In this document: positions 1 to 36,500 of the stretch, piece after piece | Numbering within the stretch: position 1 is the stretch's first letter | Layout of the letters: each line of letters starts with the position of its first letter | DNA from: Apostichopus japonicus | Lineage: Eukaryota; Echinodermata; Holothuroidea; Aspidochirotida; Stichopodidae | DNA: 64,000 bases | Direction of reading: 5' to 3' | NCBI RefSeq assembly: GCF_037975245.1 | Contig: NC_092576.1 | Coordinates: forward strand, 17,132,111-17,196,110 | Made by a program: the position numbers and the translations under genes | The notes under the pieces: generated by a model | Told to the model about the DNA's origin: nothing | Seen by the model: the letters and a program-made list of their open reading frames with translations, nothing else | Database searches by the model: none

Positions 1-1
1 C

Positions 2-1298
2 CTTCATCTACAAGAGAACATCCCTAAGCTGCATTCCTCGTGGGACAAACACTCGCCAAATTTTGATGACGCAGATGCAAGACTGAGTATGATGGCAATA
101 AATACACCTGAATCCAATGGGACAGAGCTTCCCAAAGATCGTACCATCTCACTTTGCATCCAGGCTGCAGATCGGAATTTTCAACTCCATGTACAGCTAA
201 GTGATACTATTGATCAGTTAAAACATCAACTTGAAGTTGTTACACATATTCCTTCTAACATCCAGCGCCTCTTTTATTGTGGGATGCTATTACGATACAA
301 TTATACTCTTGCAAATTATGAGATCAAAGACAATTCATCTGTGCAACTACTGTCAGTTACACAGATCTTGATCTTTTACATAAACTTGTACGGTGATAAA
401 CTGTCCCTAGGAGTTTATTCAACCGATTCCATTGGAAGTATTGTATCCATGATTGAATGTCAAGAATCACTGAGTAGAGGTCAGCATTGCTTAATGCTTT
501 TTGATAGGGAGTTGGAAAAAGAGAAGTCACTAAGATATTATAACATCCAGGACGAATCCATCTTACAGCTCCAACCAATCCTGCTAGAAAGTATACGGAT
601 CCGTGTATTTGTTAATACTAGTAAGCAATTACTAATTGGGGCAGAACCAGAAGATAAAATTAGTGATGTGAAGTTCAAAATCCAAGATAAGGAAGGCATT
701 CCTTACGGCCTCAAGCAAATTAACTTTGAAGGCAAACAGTTAGAAGATTCTAAACCTCTCTCTTATTACAATATTGGAAAAGGTAACATCAAATGTATTT
801 ATTTCAGCTTACATGATATCATGAAGATTGAGATAAGAACTGCTTCTGGAAGTACAAGTACAATTGCAGTTAAAAATGATAACACCATCAAGGAGGTAAA
901 ATCGAGGATTGAAGATTTTACAAACATACCCGAAGGGAAACAGCTCCTAATATTTGACGGAAAACAGTTACAAGATGAACTCACTCTCTCTGACTATAAT
1001 ATTGAGAACCAGAGTATTGTCAGTCTCGTAAACCTTCAACTTGGACTAAGACTAACCGTTACCATTTACAGGAAAAGTTTGATTGACAAGACTGTCACTT
1101 TCGTGATGGACACTTGTGCCACAGTGCAGGACTTGAAAGACACAGTCCAAGAAAATGCAGACATTCCTAGTGAGGAGCAAAGTCTTCTGTTCAATGATGA
1201 GTGCCTACTAGATGACAAATTACTTTCGGAATACAATATCAAAAATGGTAGCAATTTACCGTGTGTACTTGCAAAGACGGACGGTGTGCATGTTTTTT
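2..1298 (+). CDS. Copy A segment 1: leader end and ubiquitin-like domains 1-5
   Basis: This open segment ends where the T-run insertion shifts the frame; the shifted reading stops at 1318. Counting from the Met at 89, the domains are UBL1 at about residues 19-91, UBL2 93-165, UBL3 168-241, UBL4 244-318 and UBL5 320-397, with the start of UBL6 from 398. UBL3 is the clearest: it keeps KIQDKEGIP and EGKQLED-type cores, but the residue equivalent to ubiquitin Ile44 is Asn. No domain here ends in Gly-Gly, so the array should not be cut into monomers by deubiquitinases. The first residues, rich in His, Ser, Asp and Pro, are the end of a probably disordered leader. The same domains occur in copy B at high identity. 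Confidence 0.75.
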
Positions 1299-2995
1299 GT
1301 CGACACATTGAAAGATAAGATAGTTGTTCTTAATATTCGACCAAACGATACCATAGAGATGCTCAGATTAAAACTTCAAGGGATTTTGGCAACTTCTGCT
1401 AGTCTGTGCCTTTTCTACCAGAACAGTCAACTAGAAAATTATAAAACTTTAACAGACTACAACATATTCAACAAATCTGTCATTGTTGCTTATAGTTTGC
1501 GGCTCATTGTGAGGAAAAGTTCAGGCGCAAAAATTAGTCTTGATGTTGAACCTTCAGATACTGTTAGAAGTGTGAAAACTAGAATTCGAGATGAAGAGGG
1601 AATTCCCATTGATGAACAGTGGATTGACTTAGCAGGTGTGGAGTTACATGATGAAAGAACACTGTCATATTACCATGTTAAAAAACAGAGCATTATGCAT
1701 CTTCGTTTACGATGTTGTAACATAAAAATTTATGTGAGAACATCGACTAATAGAGCAATAATGCTCAAAGTTGAGCCTTCAGATACTATTGAAAATGTGA
1801 AATCCTATATTCACGACAAGGTAGGCATACCCACTCTTCAACAGAAGCTTACATTTGAAGGTAAACAATTAGAAGATAGCAGAACACTTTCTTTTTACAA
1901 TGTTTGTAAAGGGAAAGCTCTTTATTTGGTGTTACCGCCTATGGACATTTTTGTGCAAACAGTTTTTGGTAAAAAAATAACTCTGGAAGTTGATTTGTCG
2001 GATCGAATTGAAGAGGTAAAATCTAAAATTCAAGACAAGGAAGGAATTCCTCCTGATCAGCAGAAAATTATTTTTGCAGGCGAACAGTTAGCAGATGGAA
2101 GAACACTTTCTGATTACAATATTTGTATGAAGAGCATTATTTATTTGTTGTTAAGGATTAGAACAGGTATACAAATATTGATGAAAACACTTACTGGTAA
2201 AACAATAACTCTGGAAGTTGTACCGTCGGAAATCATTGATAACGTAAAATCAAAAATCCAAGACAAGGAAGGAATTCCTCCTGATCAACAGAGGATTATT
2301 TTTGCAGGTAATCAGTTAGAAGATCAAAGAACACTGTCTGACTATAATGTACAGAACGAAAGCACTCTGCATCTTGTCTTACGACTGCGTGGTGATGAGG
2401 AGTTGCAACTACATGATAATCGTATGTGCATATTCGTACAAATGATGTCGAGTAGGACAATAAAAATAAGAGTTTGTCCTCACGAAACCATTAGCACAGT
2501 AAAATCTAAAATTCAAGACCAAGTCGGTTTTTCCCAAGGTTTTAGTCAGCTTACATTTGCAGGCAAGACACTGTGTGATGGACAAACCCTTCTGTATTAT
2601 GCAATAGAAGATCAAGCAACTCTTCTGTTGGTGCCAAGTTCATGCGACGTCAGTCATATATACGTAAAACCTGAATCTGGTGGATCAATCAAGCTTCGAT
2701 ATGCACCACAAGATACAGTCGGAACATTCAAGAGAAAAGTGCAAGACAAACTAGGTGTTCCACCTAACTATCAATATTTGACATTCAATAATAAGCAATT
2801 AGAAGATGGGAATACATTCTCTGACTACCAGATTCAAGGCGGATCAACTCTCTATCTACACCATCAAGGGACAATTCCAGTGATTGTAGCTCACCCAGGC
2901 AAAGCTGCTCTAACTGTACATTGTCAAAGTCGTGACACTGTAGAAATCTTCAAACGGAAACTACTTTCCCAGCAGTATTGTCTAAATCTTTCCGG
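1299..2995 (+). CDS. Copy A segment 2: ubiquitin-like domains 6-13, including the near-canonical ubiquitins
   Basis: This segment is open in the frame after the T-run and holds most of UBL6, then UBL7 to UBL12 and the first part of UBL13. UBL9 (1941-2168) and UBL10 (2169-2396) are each exactly 76 residues, like ubiquitin. UBL10 keeps K6, K11, K27, K29, K33 and the [12 protein letters not shown] opening, but has Asn at positions 48 and 63 and ends LRLRGD instead of LRLRGG. UBL9 has Glu at 48, Met at 63 and ends R-T-G. Domains 7, 8, 11 and 12 are recognisable from EGIP or GVPP loops and L-x-D-x-x-T-x-x-x-Y motifs. After the 7-nt deletion near 2995 the shifted frame stops at 3056. Confidence 0.8.
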
Positions 2996-4549
2996 CTTGA
3001 AAACGATAAATCAATATCTTCCTACAACATTCAGGCAAATACTATTCTTGGGCTAGAGAATACAACTAACTTAAACACCAATGCTACCGATGCCGTCACT
3101 TTAGGTCCATTCGAAGGAACAAAAGTAAGTCGTGGCACCAAATGGGCTCTTTATGAATGTGCGAAGGTGGGTAAGAGCCAAACTTTTGAAGAGGTTCGGT
3201 ACAACAGCTCTGATGGAAACGATGGCTACATCGTTCAAGTAAATTTTGGCAATAAAAATAAAATCTTTACATTTCCACTAACCGACGTTGAAAACTTAAG
3301 AATGTTGAAAGAGAAGGTCTATGCAGCGGATGGAGATGTGCATCCTGACCAACAACGGATATACGGACGGGGCACTGAATTGATGGATGCAGAAGAGCTC
3401 GTATCATTACACGTCCATGATGGTAAATGTATCCTAGATCTATATTTACGCAAGTCTAAAGAAATTTCAGTTCTGGTAATTGGTATGCATGGGACACGAC
3501 ACAAGGTTGCTGTAGATATCTTTAGTACAATTAAACAACTAAAGAAACATCTTTACTGGGAGAACAATTTCTGTTTGGAAGGAAAGGTTTTGATGTTTAA
3601 TGGCATACATCTCGACGATTCCGCTACCTTTTCAAATTACAACATAGATGACAAGTCGGTTCTTTATGCACTTGAAATACCAGAGAATCACATGAATATC
3701 AAAATTCGAATATCCACAAGGGATATTACTTCTGTATTTCTAAGCAAGTCTGAAACGATTAAAAACTTAAAATTGATGATTAGACAACATACATTCATCC
3801 CCGTCGATCAGCAGGAACTTACGTTACATGACACAGTGCTTGAAGACAACAAAACATTGTTTGAATACTTCCAAGATCAAGAGGACGGTCAAATATTGAC
3901 ACTTTCTCTAATCCATCACATACGCATATCACTAACTGTTTGTATCAATATGTTCAAAAGTAGTGACTACGTGGTTCAATCAGTGAGCCTTCTAGGATCT
4001 GATACAATCGAAATGTTAACACAGATCGTTTATCAAAGGGTATTTATTCTACCAAAACAACAACAGTTGAAGAAAAATGGTCAGATACTTGAACATAGCA
4101 AGACCTTGTCAAAGTCTAACTTAACAAACGGAGATATTATTTTCGTGGACATCTTACCACTTTGTAAGATCACAATTAACCTAGGTGAAGGACATAAGCC
4201 AATCACTGTTGAGATTCTGCCGAACGATACTATCAGTGAAGTGAAGGATCACATACAAAAGGAGAGTGGGATTTTAATGAATAATCGATGCCTACTACAT
4301 GAAGGAGCTGTTCTGGAGGATCACAAATCTGTAGACGATTACGACATTAAAGACGGTTCAATTCTGTTCCTTTCCCAGAGACCACCAGAACTTGTTACAT
4401 TAACTTTTCAAAGAACTTCAGGGGAAGTAAGTGAACTGAAATTTAATCCTCGTGATCCTGTCTCAGTTCAGTCTACAATACAAAATATCATCAAAGGTGA
4501 AAATGAGTCAGCTTCTAAAAGTCACGTGTATGAGTGTAAACAGTTTTAG
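2996..4549 (+). CDS. Copy A segment 3: end of UBL13, linker, ubiquitin-like domains 14-18, C-terminal tail
   Basis: The frame is open to TAG 4547-4549. It holds the end of UBL13, then a non-UBL linker of about 55 residues rich in Asn, Thr, Ser and Gly, then UBL14 (starting YIVQVNFG), UBL15, UBL16 (MNIKIRIST), UBL17 and UBL18 (CKITINLG...[16 protein letters not shown]). The last 54 residues look like half of another UBL and end in ECKQF, with no diglycine. UBL14 keeps a ubiquitin-like [16 protein letters not shown] core. This 3' third is the part best preserved in all four copies, which may reflect constraint or simply how the duplications were truncated. Confidence 0.75.
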
Positions 4550-4854
4550 CCCATAACATGACAGAAATCGCTCTACAATGAATAATTCTCTACTTAATAT
4601 GGTGAATGGAATAACTGCAAGAAAATGTGTGAATATTTCTATAAAGTTGGCCTCACATTATGTGAAATCAGTGATTTTAATAACGAGCAGATTTTTTTAG
4701 ATTTTCAAACTATTCTATGTCATCATTAAATTAATCAGATTCAAAACAATGTGCGGCTTTAAGTGAAGGGAATAATTTAAGTGCATTTTAGGAAAGTAAC
4801 GTCAACCTTCAGTTAAGATGTTACTTAACTGTTACTTAAGATGTTTATTAACTT
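4550..4854 (+). other. 3' untranslated or flanking sequence of copy A
   Basis: This AT-rich stretch is shared with the region just after the stop codon of copies B, C and D. Where B, C and D have AATAAA, copy A reads AATAAC at 4679-4684, so its candidate poly(A) signal is damaged. No ORF of note is seen. Confidence 0.5.
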
Positions 4855-6535
4855 CAAAGTTCTTGTTGATGTTTCGTGGGAAGTTTCTAGGGTATAACAT
4901 CATTTTCATTGCAATTTACATTGCAATTTTAGTGGCTTTTTAATACAGCGTTGTGTACTATTTCAAATTACATGTAACCTGCAGATGTCCAGTAGAGTCC
5001 TACAATAGATGTTGCTGGTACATTGTAATATTCAGTCAATTAATATTGTATATTTGTAATAATTTCGTGGGAAATATTTTAGTGTATAATTTCCTGTACA
5101 TTGTCTTTCAGTGACAGCTTTTTCATACGACGTTGTGTACTATAACAAGGTATATGGAACCTGTTGATGTCAAGTAGAGACCTACAATGGATTTTGCTAA
5201 TGCATTGTCATCTTTAGTCAATTGATATTGTATATATGTATCATTTCGTGGGCAGTATTTTAGTGTACAATTTTCTGTTGATTGTCACTTTGGTGACAGC
5301 TTTTTCATCCAACGTTGTGTTTTTTAGTGACAACTGTTTTCTGTCATGATTTCATGGGAAAAAAGTTTAGGGTGTAATATCATTTTCTGTCCATTGTCAT
5401 TTTAGTGACAGCTTTTTCATACAACTTTGTGTACTATTACAATGAGCAGGTAAAATGTTGATGTGCAGTAGAGACCTACAATGGATTTTGCTGATGCATT
5501 GTCATTTTTAGTCAATTAATATTGTATATTTGTAATATTTTCGTGGGAAGTATTTTAGTGTACAATTTCCTGTACATTGTTATTTTAGTGACAGCTTTTT
5601 CATACAATGTTGTGTTTTTTAGTGACACCTTTTTTCATACTATTACAATGAACATTCAACATTTTGATGTCCAGTAGAGACCTACAATGGATGTTGCTAA
5701 TGCATTGTCATTTTTAGTCAATTAATATTGTATATTTGTAATAATTTCGTGGGAAGTACTTTAGTGTACAATTTTCTGTCGGTTGTCATTTTGATGACAG
5801 CTTTTTCATCCTACGTTGTGTACTTTTACAAGATACCTGTAACCTGTTGATTTTTAGTAGAGACATACAATGAAAGTTGTTGATGCATTTTCTTAGTTAG
5901 TCAATTAACATTGTATATTTGTAATAATTTCGTGGAAAGTATTTTAGGGTATCATATTAATTTCTGTCATTGTCTTATTAGTGACAGCTTTTTCATACAA
6001 AGTTGTGTATTATTACAAGGCACGTGTTACATGTAGATGCCCACTATACACCTTAAGTGGATGTTGCTGATACATTTTCATGTTTAGTCAATAAACATTG
6101 TGCACCTGTAATAATTTCGTGGAAAGTATTTTAGGGTATCATATTAATTTCTGTTCATTGACTTTTAGTGACAGCTTTTTCATACAAAGTTGTGTATTAT
6201 TACAAGGCACGTGTTACATGTAGATGCCCACTATGGACCTAAAGTGGATTTTGCTGATACATTTTCATGTTTAGTCAATAAACATTGTATACCTGTAATA
6301 ATTTCGTGGAAAGTATTTTAGGGTAAAATATAATTGTCTGTACATTGTCATTTTAGTAACAGCCTTTTCATACAACGTTGTGTACTAATACAAGATACAT
6401 GTAACCTGTTGATGTCCAGTAGAGACCTACAATGGATGTTGCTAGTGTGTTTTCAGTTTTAGTCAATTAACATTGTATATTTGTAATAATTTAGTGGGAA
6501 GTATTTAAGGGTAAAATATAATATTTTGTACATCT
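4855..6535 (+). repeat. 188-bp satellite array downstream of copy A (about 9 units)
   Basis: Imperfect tandem units repeat about every 185-190 bp. Each holds the landmarks GTGACAGCTTTTTCATAC, ACGTTGTGTACTATTACAAG, GTCCAGTAGAGACCTACAAT, TCAATTAATATTGTATATTTG and TTTCGTGGGAAGTATTTTAG. Some units carry an extra duplication of about 30 bp containing TTTTAGTGACAGC. The same satellite follows copies B, C and D, so it moves with the gene. No coding potential is seen. Confidence 0.85.
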
Positions 6536-8370
6536 CTGAATCTTTAGAGCAAAGTGTTAATTAAGATTTATTTTGTAGGGGTAAGTGTTCGGTCTAGGCC
6601 AACAGGTATGAAGGTGGTGATTACTTCGAAATGTCTTTTCTGTGTGATTCAATGTTCGGATCAAGGAGTTGATTGATTGTTATATTTTTATGGGTATGTG
6701 TATTTTAAACCATTCAAGAGGCCGAATCATATTCTATCACAGTAATCTACCTTGATTGTTCACAGTTAGTTTATAATCCACAGAGATTTTGTTCAGATCT
6801 AGATACTGGCTCGAATGTAAAGGTTCTCTTCATTTTTTTTTTTATCTACAATGGGTTGTATAATTTCACTTAAATTTTAAATCGTTATTCAACACTAAGT
6901 TGAGAGGGTGGTAAAATGAGAAGGTGCGTGTAGCCAGGGGTGACCGTTCATTGTGTAAGTTCAGATGTCATAGGTTTACCAGGTCATTCTAAACACAATT
7001 TAGCAACAGAGCTTTAGTTGCACCGAGACAGGCAAGTGGAGGCGAAGAAATACAGTAAACTTCCTCTTTACCCTCCATCGTGCACAACCATAGAACACAA
7101 ATTAAAGGGGTGTTTCTCTGTCAGAAATTGTATACTGATCTAAAAGAATATAAATGTTCCACACTGCTTGAAGAAAACCCATCTAAATATCTTGCCACTC
7201 CAGACATGGTTGATTGAAATAACCCAATTTTGGCTGAGGTAATATTCCCTCACTGTAGAAAAAGGATAATAGAAGGTGGGCACTGATGTCAGCTGGGTAG
7301 ATTTTCTTCAAAGGATTTACTTGGAAATAGTCTTTTCTTTTTAATTGACCACCAGAATATGCCTTCAAGGTATCCCAATGTAACAGCAACCTTATGACAA
7401 ATGTAGATTAGAGACCACCAACGGTTCTTATCATATAAAAGCTATTATATTTCATATCGTTTCGTTACATTTTAGTACATCATTATGCAGTACGTACAAA
7501 TTTGTTAAGTAGTTGATACAATTCTTTAGTTATTTACATATGATTCATAGTATAGTAAAATCAGTCCATATATGTACTGAGACAACAACATTTCTAAATG
7601 CAACTTTTTGAATTGCTTCTGCATTGATAGATTATTGACAGCAATATATTTCATTTACTTGCCAAGTTATGCATTATTTCAAATAATGAAGGACCAGTTA
7701 AAAAAAAATCACTTCAAATTTACTTTTTTTGCGGGTGATTAATGAAGACATTAAAAATAAAAAAGATTGTACTAGCAAACAATTATTGTAGCATTTAGCT
7801 TAGAGAGTTAATTTTATGTATTCTATGTAACATAATTTCTACAGTCTGGGCAGGAAGCTCTCAACACTACCAGAAAATTTCCATCAACTTTATCATTTGG
7901 GTACACTTTTGACTAATATCTTGGTTAATGAAAACAATGACAGGTGCTGGTAGTTGTCAGATTTGGCTGGAATACTCTTAAGTTTTAAAGATATTTTGGG
8001 TAGTTTTAGTAAGGTTCCAACTCTCTTAGTCATAATAATAATATAAATGAAAGCATGATGTGTACATTTATCTCCAAATAGCAGAGCTGAACAAACCAAC
8101 TGACGATCTACATGTTATCAAACAAACAGTTTACCATACGTTCATCAAAATGGTTGGAAAAACTATATCGCAGAAACTTGTTTTGGAGCATTAGTAGCTG
8201 CTTCTGCATCCGGAAGCAATTGTGAATCAATCTTCTTATTAATAAACGATGAATTGTTGCAATGATTTTAATAATGTTTATAAATAATTGTCGGAAAATT
8301 GTTTTAAAAAGTGTTGTAATTGGTTATATTTGCAACTCCACACAATAGATGGTTAGAAATTATGGTCAAT
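6536..8370. other. Shared downstream block of the duplication unit, no gene seen
   Basis: The block starts with TAGGGGTAAGTGTTCGGTCT-like sequence and recurs after the satellites of copy C (36500-37677), copy D (52700-53270) and, cut short, copy B (25190-25358). Agreement with copy C ends at about 7689, where copy C carries the Penelope-like element. I see no coding region; short ORFs here are not preserved between the copies. Confidence 0.6.
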
Positions 8371-11025
8371 AGAGGCCAGGGTGATATTCCATTGACCTGA
8401 CAACTTAGACAAATTACGTACATTTAAACGATCTGGGCACGTAGAATCACAACTAACTATAATTTGAATGCAATGAGTGTCACCTCTTATGACACAAGAT
8501 ATTGAAAGTGCTTCAAGCATGTTTTATCATGTGCTTTGCCAGTGTTAATGAATATGATATCGCCCATTTAACTGCAACAGCAGACAGGGTCTTTATCCAA
8601 AAATGTGTTTGTAGGAATTGTGCATGATAATGAAGTAAACAATCCACTGTCTAGAGAATAAGATATATAAGGGAATATTAACGGGCTTACGTTCCTTCGC
8701 TTGGATCTCATACCTATCCCGTTAAATCGTAAAAGCAATCACAGATAAATTGCTACAAAGTTTGACATGTAAGTTGGTCAAAAATATGCTAAGACGATGC
8801 AATTTCTATGTGGTTCTCTTCCTACCAAGGCTCTCACACGCATCAGCATCGCATCGTAATGACAGCCAATTACTGTGCAGTTTGAAACAAATTGCAAATT
8901 ACCTAATATGTGTCTTTGCTTAGTGCAATTGATCAAATTAACAAGAGATGATGACATGATTATATATATTATTTCATACGACATTTTTAATTCTTAAGCT
9001 AGTGGTTTACATGTTCCTTGAACCTCTTGTAATTCAATTAATTATCTGTTGCTGACATGTTGCAAAGGATAGCAGCGGGCACGAAGAGGACAAAACGCTG
9101 CACAAAATATAAAAAAAAAGATGTCTCTACCAATAGAGGTAGAGGTCAATCAATGGTGATGATATTACAAGTTTTTAATTCATAACCTTAACTAGCATTC
9201 CAGTAGCATTTACAAAGACCAGATAGACAAGTAAAGACAAAGACAGTGTTTCAATTGAAAGGAATATGCTGCATTGGAAAACACTATCGTTTTGAAACTT
9301 TATCAAAAAGATAAACATGATAAAAACATATAAACAAATACAAACGTGGTATTGCTGAGGATTACAATACTGTGCTGAAGAGGTATTCTCAGTGACAGAG
9401 GTACCGATGACTATGTGGTTGAATGAATTCAATCACAGACATTATGTATCAATCAAAGTTTTGACAAAGTCGTCTCTAAATACCAACTTTCACGACGCTT
9501 GCTAGTGAGTTTTAAAGATATTATCGTGCTGTATAGGCAAAGCTTTTTGTACATTAAAAAAAGTTTCATTTAAAAGTGTTTTTGTCAAGTGCGATCGCCT
9601 AATTTGACATAAGTATTGACTAACACTACTTCTTTGAAAACTGAACGTTTGTTGGAATAAAAACAAGTAATTATCAGCTTGTACGTCACTGGATCCCAGA
9701 TACCAGCCACCCTACTTCAGAGACGTCCCCAACTAAGTTAACCGACTTAGAAGTTTCCAAAGGAGACAATTTTATTTTCAATCGCATTTGGTCGATCCGC
9801 GCCGCAATTTTGTTCGTTGGGACTGCTGGGTATTTTTTTCCAATAAGTTCAGTGGCTTTGTTCTAAGGTGTTAGAGATCTGTAATAACAGCCATTTATAT
9901 CATTTTACATTTTTCATTAATTTTAAGTAACCCCATTGATTTTCATTTTAGCGTCCATGTGCGTAGTAAACACACCACGTTTCCTTTATATGACTTTTTT
10001 TTTGTGTGAGCGTTTCGCCTTTTCAAGTTGTTTTTACGATCTCAGAGTGAGCAGGCCCTACCCTCATGGGAAGGTGCCACATGTAATTCACCCAGACCTA
10101 AAATATATTTTTGCCTGCTCACTGCGTTTTTGGCCGGCTACACTTGTGAGTTGTTAACTATCATTGTCTTTTCTCTGATTTTTTTTACCCGTGTTGTTGT
10201 ATTGTGTATATCTGTACTGATTAACTTGTTTAAGGGGCAGCTCGTGCAAGCCATTGCGTACTTAGTCCTACTACAACACCTTGTTTTATATGGACATTTG
10301 TACTACTCCTATTTAATTGTAGTGGAAATATACTCAAACTAAATGTGTCCTATGTTTGATTGACTAAATCTTCAACTACTCCGGGAAGCTGGATCACACT
10401 AGGGGATCGTTGATGTCATTTGGGCAATTGCTCTTTGGAATCTTTATTTCAATCGGGTCAAAAGGTTAAGTTTGTAATTAATTGATAATCTAATCACACC
10501 ACACAAGGATCATTAATCCACACACACTACATAGAAGACGGTTTCAATGACTGTTTCAATGGCTTCAGTTACTACAAGGAGGTAACCCCAACTTTAAATT
10601 AAATACTACATTATCCTCTGGTCTTTCCAAGACTCAGGCACACGCAACTGAGCATAATACTGCGTTGCGGGTGGTCATCTTATATGTCGCCTTCTATTTA
10701 TCTAGGTATTATGTCACTGTTCAGAGTTCCATGTGCTTTCCATGTGGACAGTGAGGTAGGTATAGCAGGTCACGTGACGTCAGTTAATCAGCTCATTTGG
10801 ATCAATTCTCGACTTGTAAATCGGACTTCGCTCCCGTTCTGCATCGTTCGGTTCTGTCGTAGCATTGGCTCCGGGCATTGGGGTCGTAATTGTATCTGTT
10901 TTGTATTCGTCTTTTATACACTTTTGTACATATTATTATATGACTCTACTTCACTATTAATACCTCGTTTGTAACCATTTTACATTAAGTGCATGTTCTT
11001 CTATTTATCACTGAGGACTTTGTGC
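8371..11025. other. Intergenic: duplicated 8371-8645, then about 2.4 kb specific to this unit
   Basis: 8371-8645 matches 39755-40040. The stretch from about 8650 to 11025 is absent at the equivalent place near 40045, so it is an insertion here or a deletion there. It contains an inverted repeat (AGTGAGCAGGC near 10036, GCCTGCTCACT near 10111) with about 65 nt between the arms. No transposase, reverse transcriptase or clear terminal repeats were recognised. Confidence 0.4.
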
Positions 11026-11069
11026 CGATGTATTGTTTGTACCGTAGCTAATTATAGTAATATATAGTG

Positions 11070-13870
<2,801 letters not shown>

Positions 13871-14816
13871 GGTCACCGAATACTAAGCTGACTGTGTGAA
13901 TCAATTTTGACTTGAAACACGGTGAACATTCACTTGACAGAAATTAACAATTAATCACGTTTGGTGATGCCATCCATTTTAGACCGATGCTTATCAATAG
14001 ATGTTAAGGATCACTGGACGAATAAGGGTAAACACAACTTTGTTCGAGTGAAATATTGTTAGCACTGATTCACTCTTTTAATTTGACAGATCGAGATATA
14101 AGCCATGAAAAAAGCCATTGTATAAAGTCTAATGTTAAGAACGAGTCTATCTGTAGAAATCAGTACAAATTACCAAATACGAGCTTTTTCATCAGTCTGT
14201 GATACAGAGTAGTTTGTGGCATCGTATATTAACACATGTTGATCACCAACACGTTTTAGTGATTACATTTTGGCCGCGCAATTTTTGAGAAAGATTACCG
14301 TACTATTCGCTGTTTCCAATTGTTCATTAACATATTATTTGATTATGCTTTGTGTAAAGATGGCAGCGATTTGTAATTACAATCAATCAAACCTACGTAG
14401 TCTACAATAATATGTGAGTTTGTCGCTGGTACTCCAAGGATTATAGCCCAGACTTTTGCTTCGTGTGTTTCTACCTCAACCTTCCCTTATTTCCAGTACG
14501 TTGTACGAGATAGAAAGAAAAAAGTAAACACAGAATAAATTGATATTTTCTATAATGCTCAAACCATAAACATTATGTTAATATAACTCGAACTACTCAA
14601 AGAAAACGAACCTGGTTATGTAACCGACACTGAAGCAGTGTCCGCTATACATGATTCATGTAACACTACAAAAGACGGTAACTGTTCTCAAGGCCAGTTA
14701 TGATATTTTGATCAAATGGCAGTTATTGCTAAGATAATTTTTGAAATGAAATTATTATTAACGTTATACATGTAAATGATTAAGAATATGTATTATCTTT
14801 ACGTTCATTAATCAAG
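13871..14816. other. AT-rich non-coding sequence before the repeated exons
   Basis: Copy C's unit lacks this sequence: agreement jumps from about 13870 to about 16925. I see no ORF or RNA gene. It would be the first place to look for further upstream exons of the repeated-exon gene. Confidence 0.35.
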
Positions 14817-14942
14817 GAGATGCAGATCTCGAAAACATTGATGTTGATTACAAGAACGACTCGATGATGTCGTCGTCCTTTCAGAAAAGACTGGATAAGT
14901 TACAGTCCGGTAAACATGTTGCCAAGAAAGAAAATGGAACAG
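14817..14942 (+). CDS. Repeated short exon, unit 1 (phase 1, 126 nt), unknown protein
   Basis: This internal exon is inferred from comparing three tandem units. The acceptor is AATCAAG before 14817; the donor is G|GTTTGTAACCG at 14942/14943. The length is 126 nt (42 codons), with 2 nt completing a split codon at the start and 1 nt left at the end, so it can be skipped or added without shifting frame. It reads (G)DADLENIDVDYKNDS..., then SFQKRLDKLQSGKHVAKKEN. The peptide is hydrophilic, with no Cys, signal peptide or membrane segment. I do not recognise the family. It is supported by open reading, splice sites and similarity to units 2 and 3. Confidence 0.5.
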
Positions 14943-15505
14943 GTTTGTAACCGAGGAAAAATATTAATCTTGTTACAGTATGTTACAAACAGTTATGGTA
15001 CTTACTGTATATACGATGGAGACACAGCCACGGCTTTCGCTGGATATGGAAGGAGGAAGTAGGATGTGGGAATTTGGGGAAGAGAGTCGGAGTAGGTTTA
15101 GTGAATCTCATTTTGGTCAAGACACTTATATTTGATGACGTCACATGTTTAGAGAAGACTGGTTGTGTTCCGATCTGGAACCGTGCAAATACTGTCAACC
15201 TCGATCTTGACCAAACGAAAATTTGTAATCGAAAAAAAAAACGGTAAATAGTGTCCATGAAATTTACATTGGCCAAAATTGTGATACTTTTAAATTGAAC
15301 TGAAATGCAAAGATGATTAACTTCATTCATATCAATTAATATGAACATGTATTACTTCTTCAAGAATGGTAGCTATGTTTGAAGAGTCAAAGGATATACA
15401 TGAACATATTTATTTCGTTTTCTTATATAATTTGTTACCAACGCTTTACTTTTGTTGTGTTTAATGATCCTTGTTCCTAAGAAATATTCATTTTTCGTTC
15501 ATAAG

Positions 15506-15637
15506 ATAACAGAGATGAAGATCTTGGAAACGTTGACGTTCTTCACGCGAACGTCTTGAAGATGCCCTTGTCTTTTCAGAGAAGACTGGATATGTCCCAG
15601 TCCGATGAACATGTTGCCAAGGAAGATAATGCAAAAG
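15506..15637 (+). CDS. Repeated short exon, unit 2 (phase 1, 132 nt), unknown protein
   Basis: This is the second unit of the tandem exon array, about 690 bp after the first. The acceptor is CGTTCATAAG before 15506; the donor is AAAAG|GTTTGTAACCGAC after 15637. The 132 nt give 44 codons in the same 1-1 phase as unit 1. Key residues shared with unit 3 are D-L-G-N-V-D near the start, M-P-L-S-F-Q in the middle and D-M-S-Q near the end; H-V-A-K is shared with unit 1. A second AG (AACAG at 15508-15512) would give a different phase, so the upstream AG is preferred. The surrounding intron is duplicated as well. Confidence 0.5.
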
Positions 15638-16184
15638 GTTTGTAACCGACCAAAAAGCTAATGTTGCTACAGTATGTAATAAACAATTATAGTTCTTACT
15701 CTAAATATGATGGAGAAACAGCCAGGGCTTTGGTAGGTTATTAGAAGGAGAGAGGCAGAGGATTTAAAAAAAGGGGGATGGGAGTAGGTTTTGGACATCC
15801 AATTTCGGGTAGGATACTTTTATTTGATGATGACACATGTTTATAAAGGACTGGCTGTATTCCGGTCTGATTCCGTACATTTACTGTCAACCGGGACCTT
15901 GACCAAACGGAAATTTGTAACCGAAACAAATCGGTAAATCGTGTGAATGAAACTGGCAGTGGTCGAAATTGTGTGGCTTTTAATTTAAACTGAAACGATG
16001 ATAATCTTTATTCATATCAATCAATGAAAATAGTATTAAATATTCCTGAATGATCTGTTCGAAGAGTCAAATGATAAACATGAATATTGTATTTTGTTTC
16101 CATTTATAAGTTTATAACAAGGCTTTTCTTTCGTTGTGTTGAATGATCCTTGTTTCTAAGAAACATTGTTTGATCGTTCATTAG

Positions 16185-16310
16185 GTCATGGAGATAAAGA
16201 TCTCGGAAACGTTGATCACGAAAACGTCCCGACGATGCCGTTGTCCTTTCAGATAAGGCGGGATATGTCCCAGCCCAATACAGATGTTGCCAAGGCGGAT
16301 CATGAAAAAG
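16185..16310 (+). CDS. Repeated short exon, unit 3 (phase 1, 126 nt), unknown protein
   Basis: This is the third unit. The acceptor is GATCGTTCATTAG before 16185; the donor is AAAAAG|GTTTGTAACC after 16310. The 126 nt give 42 codons, again phase 1 at both ends and free of stops. It shares D-L-G-N-V-D, M-P-L-S-F-Q and D-M-S-Q with unit 2. The next candidate acceptor in a compatible phase is TATCTATCAG at 18109, directly before the copy B start codon, so these exons could splice in frame to the poly-UBL exon. That link is inference; no transcript is available. Confidence 0.5.
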
Positions 16311-16799
16311 GTTTGTAACCGACCAAAAAAATAATCTTGTTACAGTACGTAAGAAACAGTTATAGTTCTTAATGTAAATATGATGGAGATACAGCCACGG
16401 CTTTGGCTGGATATTGGAAGGAAGGAGCCTGAGGATGTGGGAATGGGGGTGGGGGCGGGGGGTTGGGAGTGGGTTTGGTGAATCCCATTTTAGGTTTTGG
16501 TTGGATATTGGAAGAGAGGAGGATGGAGATGTAGCAATTCGGAGGGGAGGTTGGGAGACGTCTAGCTGTGTTCCGGTCTGATAACGTGCAATTATGATCA
16601 ACTATCATCTTGACAAAACGGAATTGTAACCGAAACAAATCGGTAAATCGTGTTAATGAAATTAACTGTGGTAGATATTGTGGTGCTTTAAATTGTAACG
16701 TGGTTGAGAAATGGACGGATGGTGTGAGGTGGAATACTGGAAGAATGTCTGCTAGGGTTGTGGGAGTGAGAGGGGCGAAAATAATCATTTGAAATCACA

Positions 16800-18109
16800 G
16801 TAAGTGTTTTAGAGAAAGTAACTACTGTAATCTATACATTCATTTAACCAAATGGAGAAAATAGCAATCATTTTGGTGTGGTCAGTCAGTGATCAATGTA
16901 ATCTGTATAAACACTTAGTGCACAAGTGTTAATATCGGGGAGGGGTAGGAGTGGCACAACCGACTAAAATTTAGCCAAAATCCTGTGATTGTATTCTGTT
17001 CCATTGTATGTAAAGTAGATTGGGCTTTGCTTGTGTATGCTCACTGTATGTATACAGTGTGTCACTGAGGCCATTTGTGTATTCAACTTGAAAAAGCAAT
17101 TGATACAATACAGCATACTTTAAATATTAATATCAACATTTTGTTTTCACGTAATCTGAATAACTTATTGTTTCGTCAGACTCTATCAAACATTCATATT
17201 TTGTTTCTGTTCTGCAAAGTGTCGAAACGCTAAACGATCGTAAACTACCCAACTTGGCCAGAAAGTTATATAGTTACAGTTTTGACTTTAAAACCTCAAA
17301 AAAAGGGGATATATGAAATATAAAAAATTGATGTAAAATGAAGCATTGTGAGGGCATATTTAGAATATGAAATAGATGAAGTAGATGTCTAAGAGTACGC
17401 GAGGTCTTGCTAATAAATACTTTGTGTAAGAATTATAAACGGGGTGTACAGATGTAGTAGGGTTCCAATTCTTCCCCTGCTACATGCAAAATATCCCAGT
17501 ACTGAACCATTTACCTTGACTAACGATAGAAACTAGGGGGCAAAGGCCTCCCACCCACTCTGTCAATAATACTGATATATAGTCAGTACAAGATTCTACA
17601 AATTTCTGTGAAGATCAAAGGACGTTTGAGGTCAACAGAAAACGTTTGCAACATAAACGTACAGTGAAATTTAACTTATTTATATAGTAATGCAAGGACC
17701 TCAAAGATTACTTGTGAGTAATTTTAAACAAAATTTTAAACAAGTTCAAGAAGATGTTTTTACAGTTTTATTATATGTACCCAAAATAAAATGATTCAAG
17801 AAATCACTAAATCCTGTGATCGTCCTGTTTTACTTTATATTGGGGGCGACTTACAATTACTGTGAAATATAAAAATTTCACGCAAATGGTACCAATTATG
17901 CATTAACCTTAATTTGATGGTAACATCCTGTATGATGTGTAGTATACATGTGTCCGTTGCAATTTTATGATACATTATACGACCTACGTTTGAAACAACT
18001 GACTAAAATGAAAAATCTGCAACTTGAATCTATTACTTAAACATTACTTCTAAAAGTTTTCAACACAAAGACAAATGGCATATGTTCCCTTTTTCTATCT
18101 ATCTATCAG
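16800..18109 (+). other. 5' flank or intron upstream of copy B, shared module
   Basis: The stretch from about 16925 on recurs upstream of copy D (44450-44640, 46090-46220, 47350-47900). Its middle part also occurs at 26040-26550 and 61310-61760, where no gene copy follows directly. A pyrimidine-rich tract ending TATCTATCTATCAG at 18109 is a good 3' splice site two bases before the ATG of copy B, so part of this region is probably an intron. Confidence 0.5.
18096..18109 (+). promoter_or_regulatory. Predicted 3' splice acceptor before the copy B start codon
   Basis: A pyrimidine-rich TTTTTCTATCTATC tract ends in CAG at 18107-18109, followed by AA and ATG. Copy D has the matching TTTTTCTATCTCTCAG before its ATG at 48359. 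The acceptor leaves two bases before the ATG codon (phase 1), which matches the donors of the repeated exons upstream. Confidence 0.55.
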
Positions 18110-18111
18110 AA

Positions 18112-18467
18112 ATGGATCAGAAAAATAGTGTACAAAGCAACAGTGAATCCACAGCACAGGTTTCTCAAAAGCAAACAGAGGAACAGCAGGAATGCACAAC
18201 CGACAATCTGCAGGAGAAAACGCCCAATCAGAATCTTTCCTATGACAAATACCAATCGAGTAAAGATGTTTGCAGTGTCGAATATGTCGATGATCCAGTC
18301 GGGTGTACTACACAGGTTGCCAATCAGCATCATGAGTTAAATCACGATCCTCATCTACAAGAAAACAGCCCTAGGTTGCATTCCTCCTGGGACAAACACT
18401 CGCCAACTGTTGATGACGCAACTGCAAGACTGAGTATGATGGCGATAAATACACCTGAATCCAATGG
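18112..18467 (+). CDS. Copy B segment 1: hydrophilic N-terminal leader
   Basis: The ATG at 18112 is chosen because a splice acceptor ends two bases before it and copy D has an ATG in the same place; the frame is also open upstream to 18082. The leader is about 118 residues, rich in Gln, Asn, Ser, Glu, Asp and His, starting MDQKNSVQSNSES and including SSWDKHSP. No signal peptide, membrane segment or known domain is visible, so it is probably disordered. A 1-nt deletion in CCAATGGGCAG (copy A: CCAATGGGACAG) shifts the frame; the shifted reading stops at 18546. Copy A retains the last part of the same leader at 2-140. Confidence 0.65.
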
Positions 18468-19739
18468 GCAGAGTTTCTTAAAGATCGTACCATCTCAATT
18501 TGCATCCAGGCAGCAGATCAGAAATTTCAACTCCATGTTCAGCTGACTGATACTATTGATCAGTTAAAACATCAACTTGAAGTTGTAACACACATGCCTT
18601 CTAACATCCAGCGCCTCGTCTATTGTGGGATGCTATTACGATACAATTATACTCTTGCACATTATGAGATCAAAGACAATTCATCCGTGCAGCTACTGTC
18701 AGTTACACAGATCTTGATCTTTTACATAAACTTGTACGGTGATAAACTGTCCCTTGGAGTTAATTCAACCGATTCCATTGGAAATATTGTATCCATGATT
18801 GAATGTCAAGAATCACTGAGTAGAGGTCAGCATTGCTTAATGCTTTTTGATAGGGAGTTGGAAAAAGAGAAGTCACTAAGTGATTATAGCATCCAGGACG
18901 AATCCATCTTACAGCTCCAACCAATCCTGCTAGAAAGTATACGGATCCGTGTATTGGTTAATACTAGTAAGCAATTACTAATTGGTGCAGAACCAGAAGA
19001 TAAAATTAGCGATGTGAAATTCAAAATCCAAGATAAGGAAGGCATTCCTTACGGCCACCAGCAACTTAACGTTGAAGGCAAACAGTTAGAAGATTCTAAA
19101 CCTCTTTCTCATTACAATATTGGGAAAGGAAACATCAAATGTATTTATTTAAGCTTACATGATATCATGAAGATTGAGATAAGAACTGCTTCTGGAAGTA
19201 CAAGTACAATTGCAGTTAAAAATGATAACACCATCAAGGAGGTAAAAACGAGGATTGAAGATTTTACAAACATACCCGTTACAAGAAAACAGTTACAAGA
19301 TGAACTCACTCTCTCTGACTATAATATTGAGAATCATAGTATTTTCAGTCTCGTAAACCTTCAATTTGGACTAAGACTAACCGTTACCATTTACAGGAAC
19401 AGTTTGATTGATAAGACTGTCACTCTCGTGATGGACACTTGTGCCACAGTGCAGGACTTGAAAGACACAATCCAAGAAAATGCAGACATTCCTAGTGAGC
19501 AGCAAAGTCTTCTGTTCAATGATGAGTGCCTACTAGATGACAAATTACTTTCGGAATACAATATCAAAAATGATAGCAACTTACAGTGTGTACTAGCAAA
19601 GACGGACGGTGTGCATGTTTTTGTCGACACATTGAAAGATAAGATAGTTGTTCTTAATATTCAACCAAACGATACCATAGAGATGCTCAGATTAAAACTT
19701 CTGCTAGTCTGTGCCTTTTCTACCAGAACAGCCAACTAG
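18468..19739 (+). CDS. Copy B segment 2: ubiquitin-like domains 1-6 (part)
   Basis: After the 1-nt deletion the ancestral frame continues from 18468 with no Met until 18594. It holds UBL1, UBL2, UBL3 ([17 protein letters not shown]), UBL4 shortened by an in-frame 21-nt deletion that removes its [10 protein letters not shown] strand, UBL5 and the first half of UBL6. A 19-nt deletion after about 19700 removes the UBL6 helix end and shifts the frame; the shifted reading stops at 19737-19739. No diglycine is present in these domains. UBL2 and UBL5 are the most diverged and are placed mainly by length, spacing and the recurrent S-x-Y-x-I-x-x-x-S motif. Confidence 0.7.
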   Translation, partial: AEFLKDRTISICIQAADQKFQLHVQLTDTIDQLKHQLEVVTHMPSNIQRLVYCGMLLRYNYTLAHYEIKDNSSVQLLSVTQILIFYINLYGDKLSLGVNSTDSIGNIVSMIECQESLSRGQHCLMLFDRELEKEKSLSDYSIQDESILQLQPILLESIRIRVLVNTSKQLLIGAEPEDKISDVKFKIQDKEGIPYGHQQLNVEGKQLEDSKPLSHYNIGKGNIKCIYLSLHDIMKIEIRTASGSTSTIAVKNDNTIKEVKTRIEDFTNIPVTRKQLQDELTLSDYNIENHSIFSLVNLQFGLRLTVTIYRNSLIDKTVTLVMDTCATVQDLKDTIQENADIPSEQQSLLFNDECLLDDKLLSEYNIKNDSNLQCVLAKTDGVHVFVDTLKDKIVVLNIQPNDTIEMLRLKLLLVCAFSTRTAN

Positions 19740-19787
19740 AAAATTATAAAACTTTAACAGACTACAACATATTCAACAAATCTGTCA

Positions 19788-20945
19788 TTGTTGCTTATAG
19801 TTTGCGGCTCATGTGAGGAAAGTTCAGGGGCAAAAATTAGTCTTGATGTTGAACCTTCAGATACTGTTAGAAGTGTGAAAACTAGAATTCGAGATGAAGA
19901 GGGAATTCCCATTGATGAACAGTTGATTGACTTTGCAGGTGTGGAGTTACATGATGAAAGAACACTTTCTTATTACCATGGTATAAAACAGAGCACTATG
20001 CATCTTCGTTTACGATGTTGGAACATGGACATTTATGTAAGAACACCGACTAATAGAGCAATAATGCTCAAAGTTGAGCCTTCAGATACTATTGAAAATG
20101 TGAAATCCTATATTCACGACAAGGAAGGCATACCTACTCTTCAACAGAAGCTTATATTTGAATGTAAACAGTTAGAAGATGGCAGAACACTTTCTTATTA
20201 CAATGTTTGTAAGGGGAAAACGCTGTACTTGGTGTTACTGCCTATGGAACTTTTTGTGCAAACCTTGTGTGATAAAAAATTAACTCTGGAAGTTGATCCG
20301 TTAGATCGAATTGAAGACGTAAAATCTAAAATTCAAGAAAAGGAAGGAATTCCTCCTGATCAACAGAGATTTATTTTTGCAGGTAGACAGTTAGAAGATG
20401 GAAGAACACTTTCTGACTATAAAATTCAGCAGGAGAGCACTATTCATATGGTGTTACGGCTTAGAGGAGGTATGCAAATTTTTGTGAAAACACTTACCGG
20501 TAAAGTAATAACTCTGCCAGTTGGACCGTCAGATACCATTGATAACGTAAAATCTAAAATTCAAGACAAGGAAGGAATTCCTGCTGATCAACAGAAGATT
20601 ATTTTTGCAGGTAAACAGTTAGAAGATGAAAGAACACTTTCTGACTATAATGTTCGAATGGAGAGTACCCTGTATCTTGTCTTAAGACTACGTGGTGATG
20701 AGGAGTTGCAACCTCGTGATGATAGTATGTGCATATTCGTACAAATTATGTCGAGTAGGACAGTAAAACTAAGAGTTGATCCTCAAGAAACTATAAGCAA
20801 AGTAAAATCTAAAATTCAAGACCAGGTCGGAAATTCCCAAGATTTTAGTCAGCTAACATTTGCAGGCAAGACACTGTGTGATGGACAAACCCTTCTGTTT
20901 TATTCAATAGAAGATCAAGCAACTCTTCTGTTGGTGCCATGTTGA
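19788..20945 (+). CDS. Copy B segment 3: ubiquitin-like domains 7-11 with two near-canonical ubiquitins
   Basis: The true reading resumes near 19820 (residue 11 of this frame). UBL7 is at residues 11-78, UBL8 79-152, UBL9 153-228 (20244-20471), UBL10 229-304 (20472-20699) and UBL11 314-385. UBL9 and UBL10 are 76 residues each. UBL9 has K11, K27, K29, K33, L8, I44, H68 and V70 of ubiquitin but R48 and Q63, and ends LRLRGG directly before the Met of UBL10, which opens [14 protein letters not shown]10 keeps K48, has M63 and ends LRLRGD. A deubiquitinase could in principle cut only after UBL9. TGA 20943-20945 replaces a Ser codon of copy A. Confidence 0.8.
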
Positions 20946-22880
20946 TGTGAAGTCAGTCATGTATACGTAAAACCTGAATCTGGTGGATCAATGAAACTTC
21001 GATATGCACCACAAGATACAGTCGGAGCATTCAAGAGAAAAGTGCAGGACATACTAGGTGTTTCACCTAATTATCAATATTTAACATTCAATAACATACA
21101 ATTAGAAGATGGGAATACATTCTCTGACTACCAGATTCAAGGCGGATCAACTCTCTATCTATACCATCAAGGGACAATTCAAGTGATTGTAGCTCATCCA
21201 GGCAGAGATGCTCTAACTGTACATTGTCGAAGTCGTGACACTGTGCAAATCTTAAAACAGAAACTACTTTCCCAGCAGTTTTGTCTCAGTCTTTCCGGTA
21301 CTGAGCTTAAAAACGATAAATCAATATCTTCCTACAACATTAAGGCCAATACAGTTCTTCGGTTAGAGGAGGTAACAAACTTGAATAACAATGTTACTCA
21401 TGCCGTCAGTTTAGGTCAATACGAAGGAACAACAGTATGTCGTGGCACCAAGCGAGCTCTTCATGAATGTTCGGATGATGGTGCGAGCCAAACCCTTAAT
21501 GAGGCTCAATACAACAATTCCAATGTTCGACAAAACAATTCCAAACAAAACGATGGATACATCGTTCAAGTAAATTTTGGCATTAGAAATAAAATCTTTA
21601 GATTTCTTTTAACCGACGTTGAAAACTTAAGAAAGTTGAAAGAGAGGGTCTATGTAGTGGAAGGAGATGTGCATCCCGACCAGCAACGGATATACGGACG
21701 GGGCACTGAATTGATAGATGAACAAGAGCTCGTATCATCACATGTCCATGATGGTACATGTATCCTAGAACTATATTTACGCAGGTCTAAACAAATTTCT
21801 GTTCTGGTAATTGGTATGCATGGGGTACGACATAAGGTTACTGTAGATATCTTTAGTACAATTGAACAACTAAAGAAACATCTTTACTGGGAGAAAAATT
21901 TCAGTTTGGTAGGAAAGGTTTTGATGTTTAATGACAGACATCTTGATGATTCCGCTACCTTTTCAAATTACAACATAGATGACAAGTCGGTACTTTATGC
22001 ACTTGAAATACCAGAGAATCACATGAATATCAAAATTCGAATATCCACAAGGGATGTTGCTTCTGTATTAATTCATAAGTCAAAAACGATTAAAACCTTA
22101 AAATTGTTAGTTAGACAACAAACATTCATCCCCGTCAATCAGCAGGAACTAACGCTACATGGCACAGTGCTTGAAGACAACACAACATTGTTAGAATACT
22201 TCCAAGCCCAAGAGGACGGTCACATATTGACACTCTCTCTAATCCATCACATACGTATATCACTAACTGTTTGTATTAATATGTTCAAAAGTAGTGACTA
22301 CGTGGTTCAATCAGTGAACCTTCTAGGATCTGATACAATCGACATGTTAACACACATCGTTTATCAAAGGGTATTTATTCTACCAAAGCAACAACAGTTG
22401 AAGAAAAATGGTCAGATACTTGAACATAGCAAGACCTTGTCAAAGTCTAACTTAATAAACGGAGATATTATTTTCGTGGACATCTTACCACTGTGTAAGA
22501 TCACAATTAACACAGGTAAAGGACATAAGCCAGTCACAGTTGAGGTTCTGCCGAACGATACTATCAGTGAAGTGAAGGATCACTTACAAAAGGAGAGTGG
22601 GATTTCAATGTCTAATCGATGCCTACTATATGAAGGAGCTGTTCTGGAGGAACACAAGTCTGTAGACGATTACGACATTAAAGACGGTTCAGTTCTGTTC
22701 CTTTCCCAGAGACCACCAGAACTTGTTACATTAACTTTCCAGAGGACTTCAGGGGAAGTAAGTGAACTGAAATTTAATCCTCGTGATCCTGACTCAGTTC
22801 AGTGTACGATACAAAATATCATCAAAGATGAAAATGAGTCAGCTTCTAAAAGCCACGTGTATGAGTGTAAACAGTTTTAG
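20946..22880 (+). CDS. Copy B segment 4: ubiquitin-like domains 12-18 and C-terminal tail
   Basis: The frame is open right after the TGA; the first Met is at 20991. Numbered from that Met, UBL12 runs to about residue 58, UBL13 63-126, an Asn/Gln/Ser-rich linker 127-189, UBL14 190-266 ([16 protein letters not shown] core), UBL15 269-343, UBL16 345-419, UBL17 421-500, UBL18 502-575 and a tail 576-629. The linker is several residues longer than in copy A because of an extra NNSNVRQNNSKQND stretch. The C-terminus is not diglycine, so the product could not be conjugated through its end. The frame is unbroken for over 1.9 kb. Confidence 0.8.
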   Translation, partial: CEVSHVYVKPESGGSMKLRYAPQDTVGAFKRKVQDILGVSPNYQYLTFNNIQLEDGNTFSDYQIQGGSTLYLYHQGTIQVIVAHPGRDALTVHCRSRDTVQILKQKLLSQQFCLSLSGTELKNDKSISSYNIKANTVLRLEEVTNLNNNVTHAVSLGQYEGTTVCRGTKRALHECSDDGASQTLNEAQYNNSNVRQNNSKQNDGYIVQVNFGIRNKIFRFLLTDVENLRKLKERVYVVEGDVHPDQQRIYGRGTELIDEQELVSSHVHDGTCILELYLRRSKQISVLVIGMHGVRHKVTVDIFSTIEQLKKHLYWEKNFSLVGKVLMFNDRHLDDSATFSNYNIDDKSVLYALEIPENHMNIKIRISTRDVASVLIHKSKTIKTLKLLVRQQTFIPVNQQELTLHGTVLEDNTTLLEYFQAQEDGHILTLSLIHHIRISLTVCINMFKSSDYVVQSVNLLGSDTIDMLTHIVYQRVFILPKQQQLKKNGQILEHSKTLSKSNLINGDIIFVDILPLCKITINTGKGHKPVTVEVLPNDTISEVKDHLQKESGISMSNRCLLYEGAVLEEHKSVDDYDIKDGSVLFLSQRPPELVTLTFQRTSGEVSELKFNPRDPDSVQCTIQNIIKDENESASKSHVYECKQF

Positions 22881-35786: not shown

Positions 35787-35927
35787 ACCCATAACATAGA
35801 TGTTGTCACAAACACATGTTTTAAATGAATAATTCTCTACTTAATATAAGGTTAATGGAATTACTGCAAGAAAATGTGTGAATATTTTTATAAAGTTGGC
35901 CTCACATTATGTGACATCAGTGATTTT

Positions 35928-36059: not shown

Positions 36060-36500
36060 ATTCAGAGTTCTTGATGGTGTTTCGTGGGAAGTATTTAGGG
36101 TATAACACCATATTCTGTACATTGCAATTTTAGTGACAGCTTTTTCATACAACGTTATGTACTATTACAAGGTACTTGTAACCTGTTGATGTCCAATAGA
36201 GACCTACAATGATTGTTGCTGGTGCATTGATATATTTAGTCAATTAATATTGTATATTTGTTATCATTTTGTGGGAAGTACTTTAGTGTATAACATAATT
36301 TTCTGTACCTTGTCATTTTAGTGACAGCTTTTTCATACAACGTTGTGTACTATTACAAGGAACATGTAACCTGTTGATGTCCAGTAGAGACCTACAATGG
36401 ATGGTACTGATGCATTGTAATATTAGTCAATTAATATTGTATATTTGTAATAATTTCGTGGGAAGTATTTTAGGGTAAAATATAATGTTCTGTACATATT
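36060..36500 (+). repeat. 188-bp satellite, short array after copy C (2-3 units)
   Basis: It has the same landmarks as the longer arrays: GTGACAGCTTTTTCATACAA twice, and GTCCAATAGAGACC then GTCCAGTAGAGACC. Array length clearly differs between copies. Confidence 0.8.

Follow-up and report, generated by a model that had tools for sequence, protein, structure and literature searches.

Few proteins are as conserved as ubiquitin, and polyubiquitin is made to be cut into its units. A stretch of 64,000 nucleotides of the sea cucumber Apostichopus japonicus genome (contig NC_092576.1, called C16 below, positions 17132111-17196110; "the window" is this whole stretch) raises the question of what is encoded by long head-to-tail arrays of ubiquitin-like (UBL) domains which differ among themselves and mostly lack Gly-Gly. 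Two such genes, copies A and B, were described in the first-pass annotation of the window. According to the analysis of the window and the search of the genome (671.6 Mb, 35 contigs), A and B are recent casualties of a family whose open member, copy F, lies just outside the window. The open reading frame was kept by selection in F and, in the past, in A and B, which is not true of the present copies A to E.

An interrupted array family and its open member

The features of the window on which the description depends are the following.

1..4549 (+): copy A, in which 18 UBL units stand between a leader and a half-UBL tail; the frame is interrupted by two indels, +1 near 1293 and -7 near 2995
1941..2387 (+): two near-ubiquitin units of A, with 53 and 62 of 76 residues as in ubiquitin and with the ends TG and GD
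18094..18111 (+): tract rich in pyrimidines and with an AG located two bases before the leader ATG of B, resembling a 3' splice site and alike in A, B, D and F
18112..22880 (+): copy B, likewise with 18 UBL units between a leader and a half-UBL tail, interrupted by indels and a TGA
20244..20690 (+): two near-ubiquitin units of B, with 57 and 62 of 76 residues as in ubiquitin, the first ending in LRGG before Met and the second in LRGD
22488..22877 (+): the final complete UBL of B, in which 27 of 76 residues agree with ubiquitin, followed by the half-UBL tail at the C-terminus
33864..35789 (+): copy C, a 5'-truncated fragment of the C-terminal part with five frame-changing indels against F
48281..50606 (+): copy D, a leader and N-terminal remnant fused to the C-terminal part, with many lesions

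The description of A and B as about 18 diverged UBLs each in one exon was upheld, since 18 units were counted in each copy by a hidden Markov model (HMM) seeded by ubiquitin and iterated on 11 translated stretches, in agreement with PF00240 (a unit divided by a lesion is one unit in all counts). In the Pfam scan of eight stretches, six of them from A and B, the ubiquitin profile exceeded the 25.4-bit cut-off of PF00240 in every one, with E values of 1e-49 to 7e-123 on the six, while the leader piece of B contained no UBL units by the iterated HMM. A leader and a tail without Gly-Gly are present in both copies as annotated, except that the leader ATG of A is situated about 236 bases upstream of the first base of the window, in the stretch L009. 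The C-termini of A, B and F are a half-UBL, by sequence about the first two strands and the helix, and have no Gly-Gly. The near absence of Gly-Gly junctions was confirmed: such unit ends were found in none of 18 units in A, one of 18 in B and 5 of 26 in F.

The expected single product of about 1500 residues was not obtained from either copy. In the present assembly both are closed, A by two frameshifts and B by three frame-changing indels (-1 near 18469 and a -19/-2 pair near 19696 and 19813 that encloses a stop) and an in-frame TGA at 20943-20945. The longest open runs are 614 codons in A and 644 in B, where 300 single-base shuffles for each copy reached maxima of 160 and 189. Programmed frameshifting in place of lesions was also considered and is unsupported: A and B have different indels, with -7 and -19 among them.

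The family proved wider than the two annotated genes, with C and D in the window, E and F outside it and two distant relatives on contig C8. A search of the genome with the DNA of B matched A (91% identity across 4.9 kb), C, D, E and F on C16, in tandem at spacings of about 13-20 kb, and the remaining three matches were short and weak (67-74%). The five frame-changing indels of C are all matched in E in equal size and order, and D and F, both with a decayed leader, have lost N-terminal UBLs by a shared deletion. Copy F, located 19 kb beyond the window, contains 26 UBL units in an open frame of 2088 codons from the first ATG and 2122 from stop to stop, against a maximum of 176 in 300 single-base shuffles. 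In A, B, D, F and the two C8 relatives an AG is found 2-8 bases before the leader ATG after a more or less pyrimidine-rich stretch, which suggests an intron in the 5' untranslated region and a single coding exon; each gene of the family probably had one long coding exon, preceded by a 5' intron whose end lay directly upstream of the ATG.

The units retain 10-62 of the 76 ubiquitin residues in A and B (split units included) and 18-68 in F, where 18 near-ubiquitin units keep 52-68 of them and form a block with 76-residue spacing. Seventeen of these 18 have 63-71% ungapped DNA identity to the normal polyubiquitin gene on contig C13, and the eighteenth has 57%, with an extra codon that disturbs the ungapped count; synonymous divergence from the C13 gene is not estimable. 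Such high residue and low DNA identity makes the near-ubiquitin units of F look old and long constrained. Two classes were recognized among the F units, namely 3, 5, 7, 10 and 11 (support 0.97) and 1, 8 and 12 (support 0.97). The ratio of nonsynonymous to synonymous rates (dN/dS) by the NG86 method was 0.40 among units 2, 4, 6, 9 and 13 (10 pairs) and 0.36 among units 1, 8 and 12 (3 pairs). The last full UBL of B was modelled as a ubiquitin fold with a predicted local distance difference test score (pLDDT) of 93 from an alignment of 28 rows, near-ubiquitin rows among them, and its best PDB match is a ubiquitin with a template modelling (TM) score of 0.88. The model of the 644-residue C-terminal piece of B (mean pLDDT 34 from 5 rows) was not used.

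Constraint on frame and on residues

Selection was measured within the single genome of A. japonicus on 14 pairs of duplicated stretches, seven flanking and seven within the gene. The seven flank pairs, pooled, provided the neutral calibration of 68 frame-shifting indels to 818 substitutions in 14,807 bases, and the ratio omega was measured against a neutral expectation derived from the flank substitution spectrum. Frame-shifting indels numbered 5 between A and B vs 31.4 expected from the flanks (p 4e-8), 1 vs 24.4 between A and F (p 2e-9) and 0 vs 25.4 between B and F (p 4e-11). For C and E (two stretches pooled) the count was 1 vs 4.5 expected (p 0.13), and for the 3' part of D and F it was 4 vs 5.4. 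These counts indicate that the frame of A, B and F was maintained through most of its history and that drift prevails in D and in the 5' part of F.

On the residues omega was 0.65 for A/B (248 nonsynonymous and 123 synonymous changes, P 9e-5), 0.74 for A/F (P 0.0035), 0.66 for B/F (P 6e-5) and 0.53 for C/F (P 5e-4), and on single branches it was 0.63 for B (P 0.011), 0.70 for C (P 0.25) and 1.65, on 12 changes, for E (P 0.84). By part of the gene, A/B gave 0.19 in the tail (8 changes), 0.44 in the leader, 0.46 in UBLs 1-3 and 0.87 in UBLs 16-18, the fastest part. No conclusion here is based on the branch ratios obtained before the flank spectrum was introduced (0.68-0.76 for A, 0.53-0.54 for B) or on the pairwise NG86/YN00 ratios of 0.29 to 0.88 in 15 pairs. 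The constraint on the frame is strong, and that on the residues is weak and real. Together, omega below 1 and the depletion of frame-shifting indels indicate that the family was coding until recently; F is still open.

Scaffold, precursor or relic

The explanation preferred here, which is given about an even chance, is that in this tandem gene family F, and formerly A and B, would encode fast-evolving, largely uncleaved tandem-UBL scaffold proteins. The predicted product would begin with a polar leader that has no UBL match, continue as a string of UBLs and end in a half-UBL, and it would act mostly as a single uncut linear string, in the manner of a genetically fixed linear ubiquitin chain. 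Such a string could offer many docking faces to ubiquitin-binding partners and serve as a multivalent scaffold or decoy, in which binding would fall to the near-ubiquitin units with Leu8, Ile44 and Val70 retained, and the remaining units would have drifted into spacers or binding sites of their own. On C16, F would be the working copy, with C8a, one of the C8 relatives, as its shorter working cousin. Fast residue change together with a strict frame, copy turnover and the recent loss of A and B fits an arms race or a dosage change, and from the turnover and the fast change the setting may be guessed to be immune or stress signalling. With 18-26 diverged folds, mostly uncut, a selected frame and fast residues, the family would show in a natural setting what an encoded linear ubiquitin-like chain is capable of, and, if the explanation is true, it would point to a form of ubiquitin signalling particular to sea cucumbers, or perhaps to echinoderms, with a possible role in immunity.

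Several known systems are comparable in part. Linear ubiquitin chains are Met1-linked, and their peptide-bonded ubiquitin folds are what an uncut F product would present; linear di- and tetra-ubiquitin were among the PDB matches. Unlike these chains, the arrays are genetically fixed, with an uneven surface and mostly without a Gly-Gly linker. ISG15 and FAT10 are two-UBL proteins and OASL carries tandem UBLs. The unequal tandem UBLs of ISG15, FAT10 and OASL have a parallel in the arrays, and some pairs in F are likewise a UBL without Gly-Gly followed by one with it, whereas the arrays have 18-26 units instead of two and no OAS domain was present among the Pfam rows of the scanned stretches. ISG15 orthologues are reported from vertebrates only (PMC9722776). 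Tandem UBLs within one protein are also a property of bacterial polyUbl proteins, which have two or three UBLs and are encoded in operons with E1/JAB genes (PMC1779556, PMC11354881).

A number of observations weigh against the scaffold explanation. The argument for a scaffold role, drawn from the arrays, is wholly anatomical. The trio Leu8, Ile44 and Val70 occurs together in 8 of 26 units of F (1, 2, 4, 6, 9, 12, 13 and 17), one of 18 in A and two of 18 in B, so that ubiquitin-like binding would be confined to part of the string, and F units 3, 5, 7 and 10, with a dN/dS of 1.07 by NG86 (6 pairs), look unconstrained as a class. A and B are broken and C, D and E more so, and in F itself the leader and first UBLs are decayed. 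The 5' part of D and F has 7 frame indels vs 5.8 expected, which is flank-like, so that the coding start of F is not fixed by sequence. The branch of F against C has an omega of 0.56 with P 0.07, and A's own branch, with 0.80, is not distinguishable from neutral (P 0.14). The first-pass annotation had named neutral substitution and exclusively dead copies as the outcome that would speak against it, and in this genome the branch of A is compatible with neutrality, while pairwise omega is significantly below 1 and F is open. In addition, the indel calibration is uneven (the 3' flank of C and E has 1 indel in 1875 bases), and the compared gene pairs overlap and are not independent.

The strongest of the other explanations, although rather unlikely, is that F encodes a polyprotein precursor, from which deubiquitinases would release free conjugatable two-UBL products, like vertebrate ISG15 and FAT10, by cutting after LKGG. 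In each product a diverged UBL at the N-terminus would precede a near-ubiquitin UBL with a free Gly-Gly. LKGG is followed by Met at the ends of F units 2, 4, 6, 9 and 17, the other 21 of 26 units being without Gly-Gly, and cutting there would yield the pieces 1-2, 3-4, 5-6, 7-9, 10-17 and 18-26. The pieces 3-4 and 5-6 are composed of a unit without Gly-Gly and a Gly-Gly unit which has Leu8, Ile44, Val70, Lys48 and Lys63, and the same genome has on contig C11 a stand-alone two-UBL open reading frame (ORF) ending in LPGGS. However, Lys74 is in place of Arg74, and qualifying junctions number only 5 of 26 in F, with none in A and one in B. A two-UBL modifier has exactly two UBLs and a conjugatable Gly-Gly end; the arrays have 18-26 UBLs and a C-terminus without Gly-Gly, and the definition could be applied only to predicted cleavage products. 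With its five LKGG ends, part of the F product could be cleaved. The further idea that F by itself supplies a set of ISG15-like modifiers in an invertebrate, giving two- and three-UBL products with conjugatable ends along with larger uncut pieces, is quite doubtful; it would, if true, be a new route to tandem-UBL modifiers, one that echinoderms acquired separately from the ISG15 and FAT10 of vertebrates.

It is unlikely that the whole cluster is dead and composed of relics, with the open frame of F as a lucky survivor or a recent copy from a lost intact gene. The lesions, which occur in all of A to E and in the 5' part of F, and the weak residue constraint are consistent with this explanation, but F runs through 2088 codons without a stop or frame break, even though its 5' part and D have flank-like indel rates. 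That A and B are segregating null alleles, or partly an assembly error, with intact alleles in other animals, would agree with the few lesions in each copy and with one lesion of A being a one-base change in a T run; this is improbable, as homopolymer slips do not account for the -7, -19 and -2 indels or the TGA and the published assembly is described as PacBio HiFi (PMC10344927). Ordinary polyubiquitin of the UBC/UBB/UBI4 type, a store of free ubiquitin which the arrays resemble in ubiquitin-family units head to tail in one exon and in the 76-residue spacing of the F block, is almost certainly wrong and was rejected, because the unit sequences are diverged instead of near-identical, Gly-Gly is mostly absent where it should precede each Met, the arrays add a leader, a spacer and a half-UBL tail, and the genome already has a normal gene of this kind.

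Relatives elsewhere and neighbouring sequences

A protein search with the C-terminal part of B returned the same six places on C16 and, far weaker, the two relatives on C8, the polyubiquitin of C13 and two-UBL ORFs on C11 and C16. The C8 relatives have about five UBLs and a half-UBL tail (C8a, L015 2870-4660, and C8b, L014 2847-4603, both on the reverse strand). C8a is open for 556 codons from the ATG with a layout similar to the arrays, and C8b has one stop and one frameshift. The C13 polyubiquitin is normal and consists of 9 units with identical protein sequence. On contig C35 (16,099 bases) the first 10,000 bases contain what reads as mitochondrial genes, and translation by the echinoderm code gives sensible residues. 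No relatives were found among phage records and viral contigs searched with the C-terminal 644 residues of B, the eukaryotic sequences covered being those of the PDB and of this genome, and no description of such a family was present among the literature matches listed, a coverage outside which most subscription papers lie.

The ORF on C11 (L019 4952-5482, reverse strand) has 176 codons from stop to stop and two UBLs, the first ending in LKGG and the second in LPGGS before the stop, an arrangement like that of the precursor of a two-UBL modifier, here in an invertebrate. Two related two-UBL ORFs without Gly-Gly (L016 3549-4142, forward, and L017 5895-6482, reverse; C16 at 15.61 and 15.66 Mb) are situated 1.5 Mb from the cluster and have in common a short motif around SGFIQVFV and similar C-termini.

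No E1/JAB genes were noticed beside the arrays in the flanks, which were examined in part, with a listing of ORFs of at least 120 codons in L009, L010 and L013. Of four other ORFs of the window that were scanned, a scan which spliced genes would escape, three are reverse transcriptase and one, at 58511-59056, adjoins a reverse-transcriptase ORF and has no Pfam match. The LINE-like reverse-transcriptase ORFs are at 41576-43356 (+) and 59057-59785 (-), two being above the Pfam cut-off and one just below. On the 3' side of copies A, B, C and D there is in each case a tandem repeat whose unit is about 187 bases long, at 4935-6533, 23230-25183, 36080-36497 and 50960-52017, respectively. Upstream of A and B there are long diverged direct repeats, about 76-83% alike, at 14791-16495 of the window and about 630-8040 of L009.

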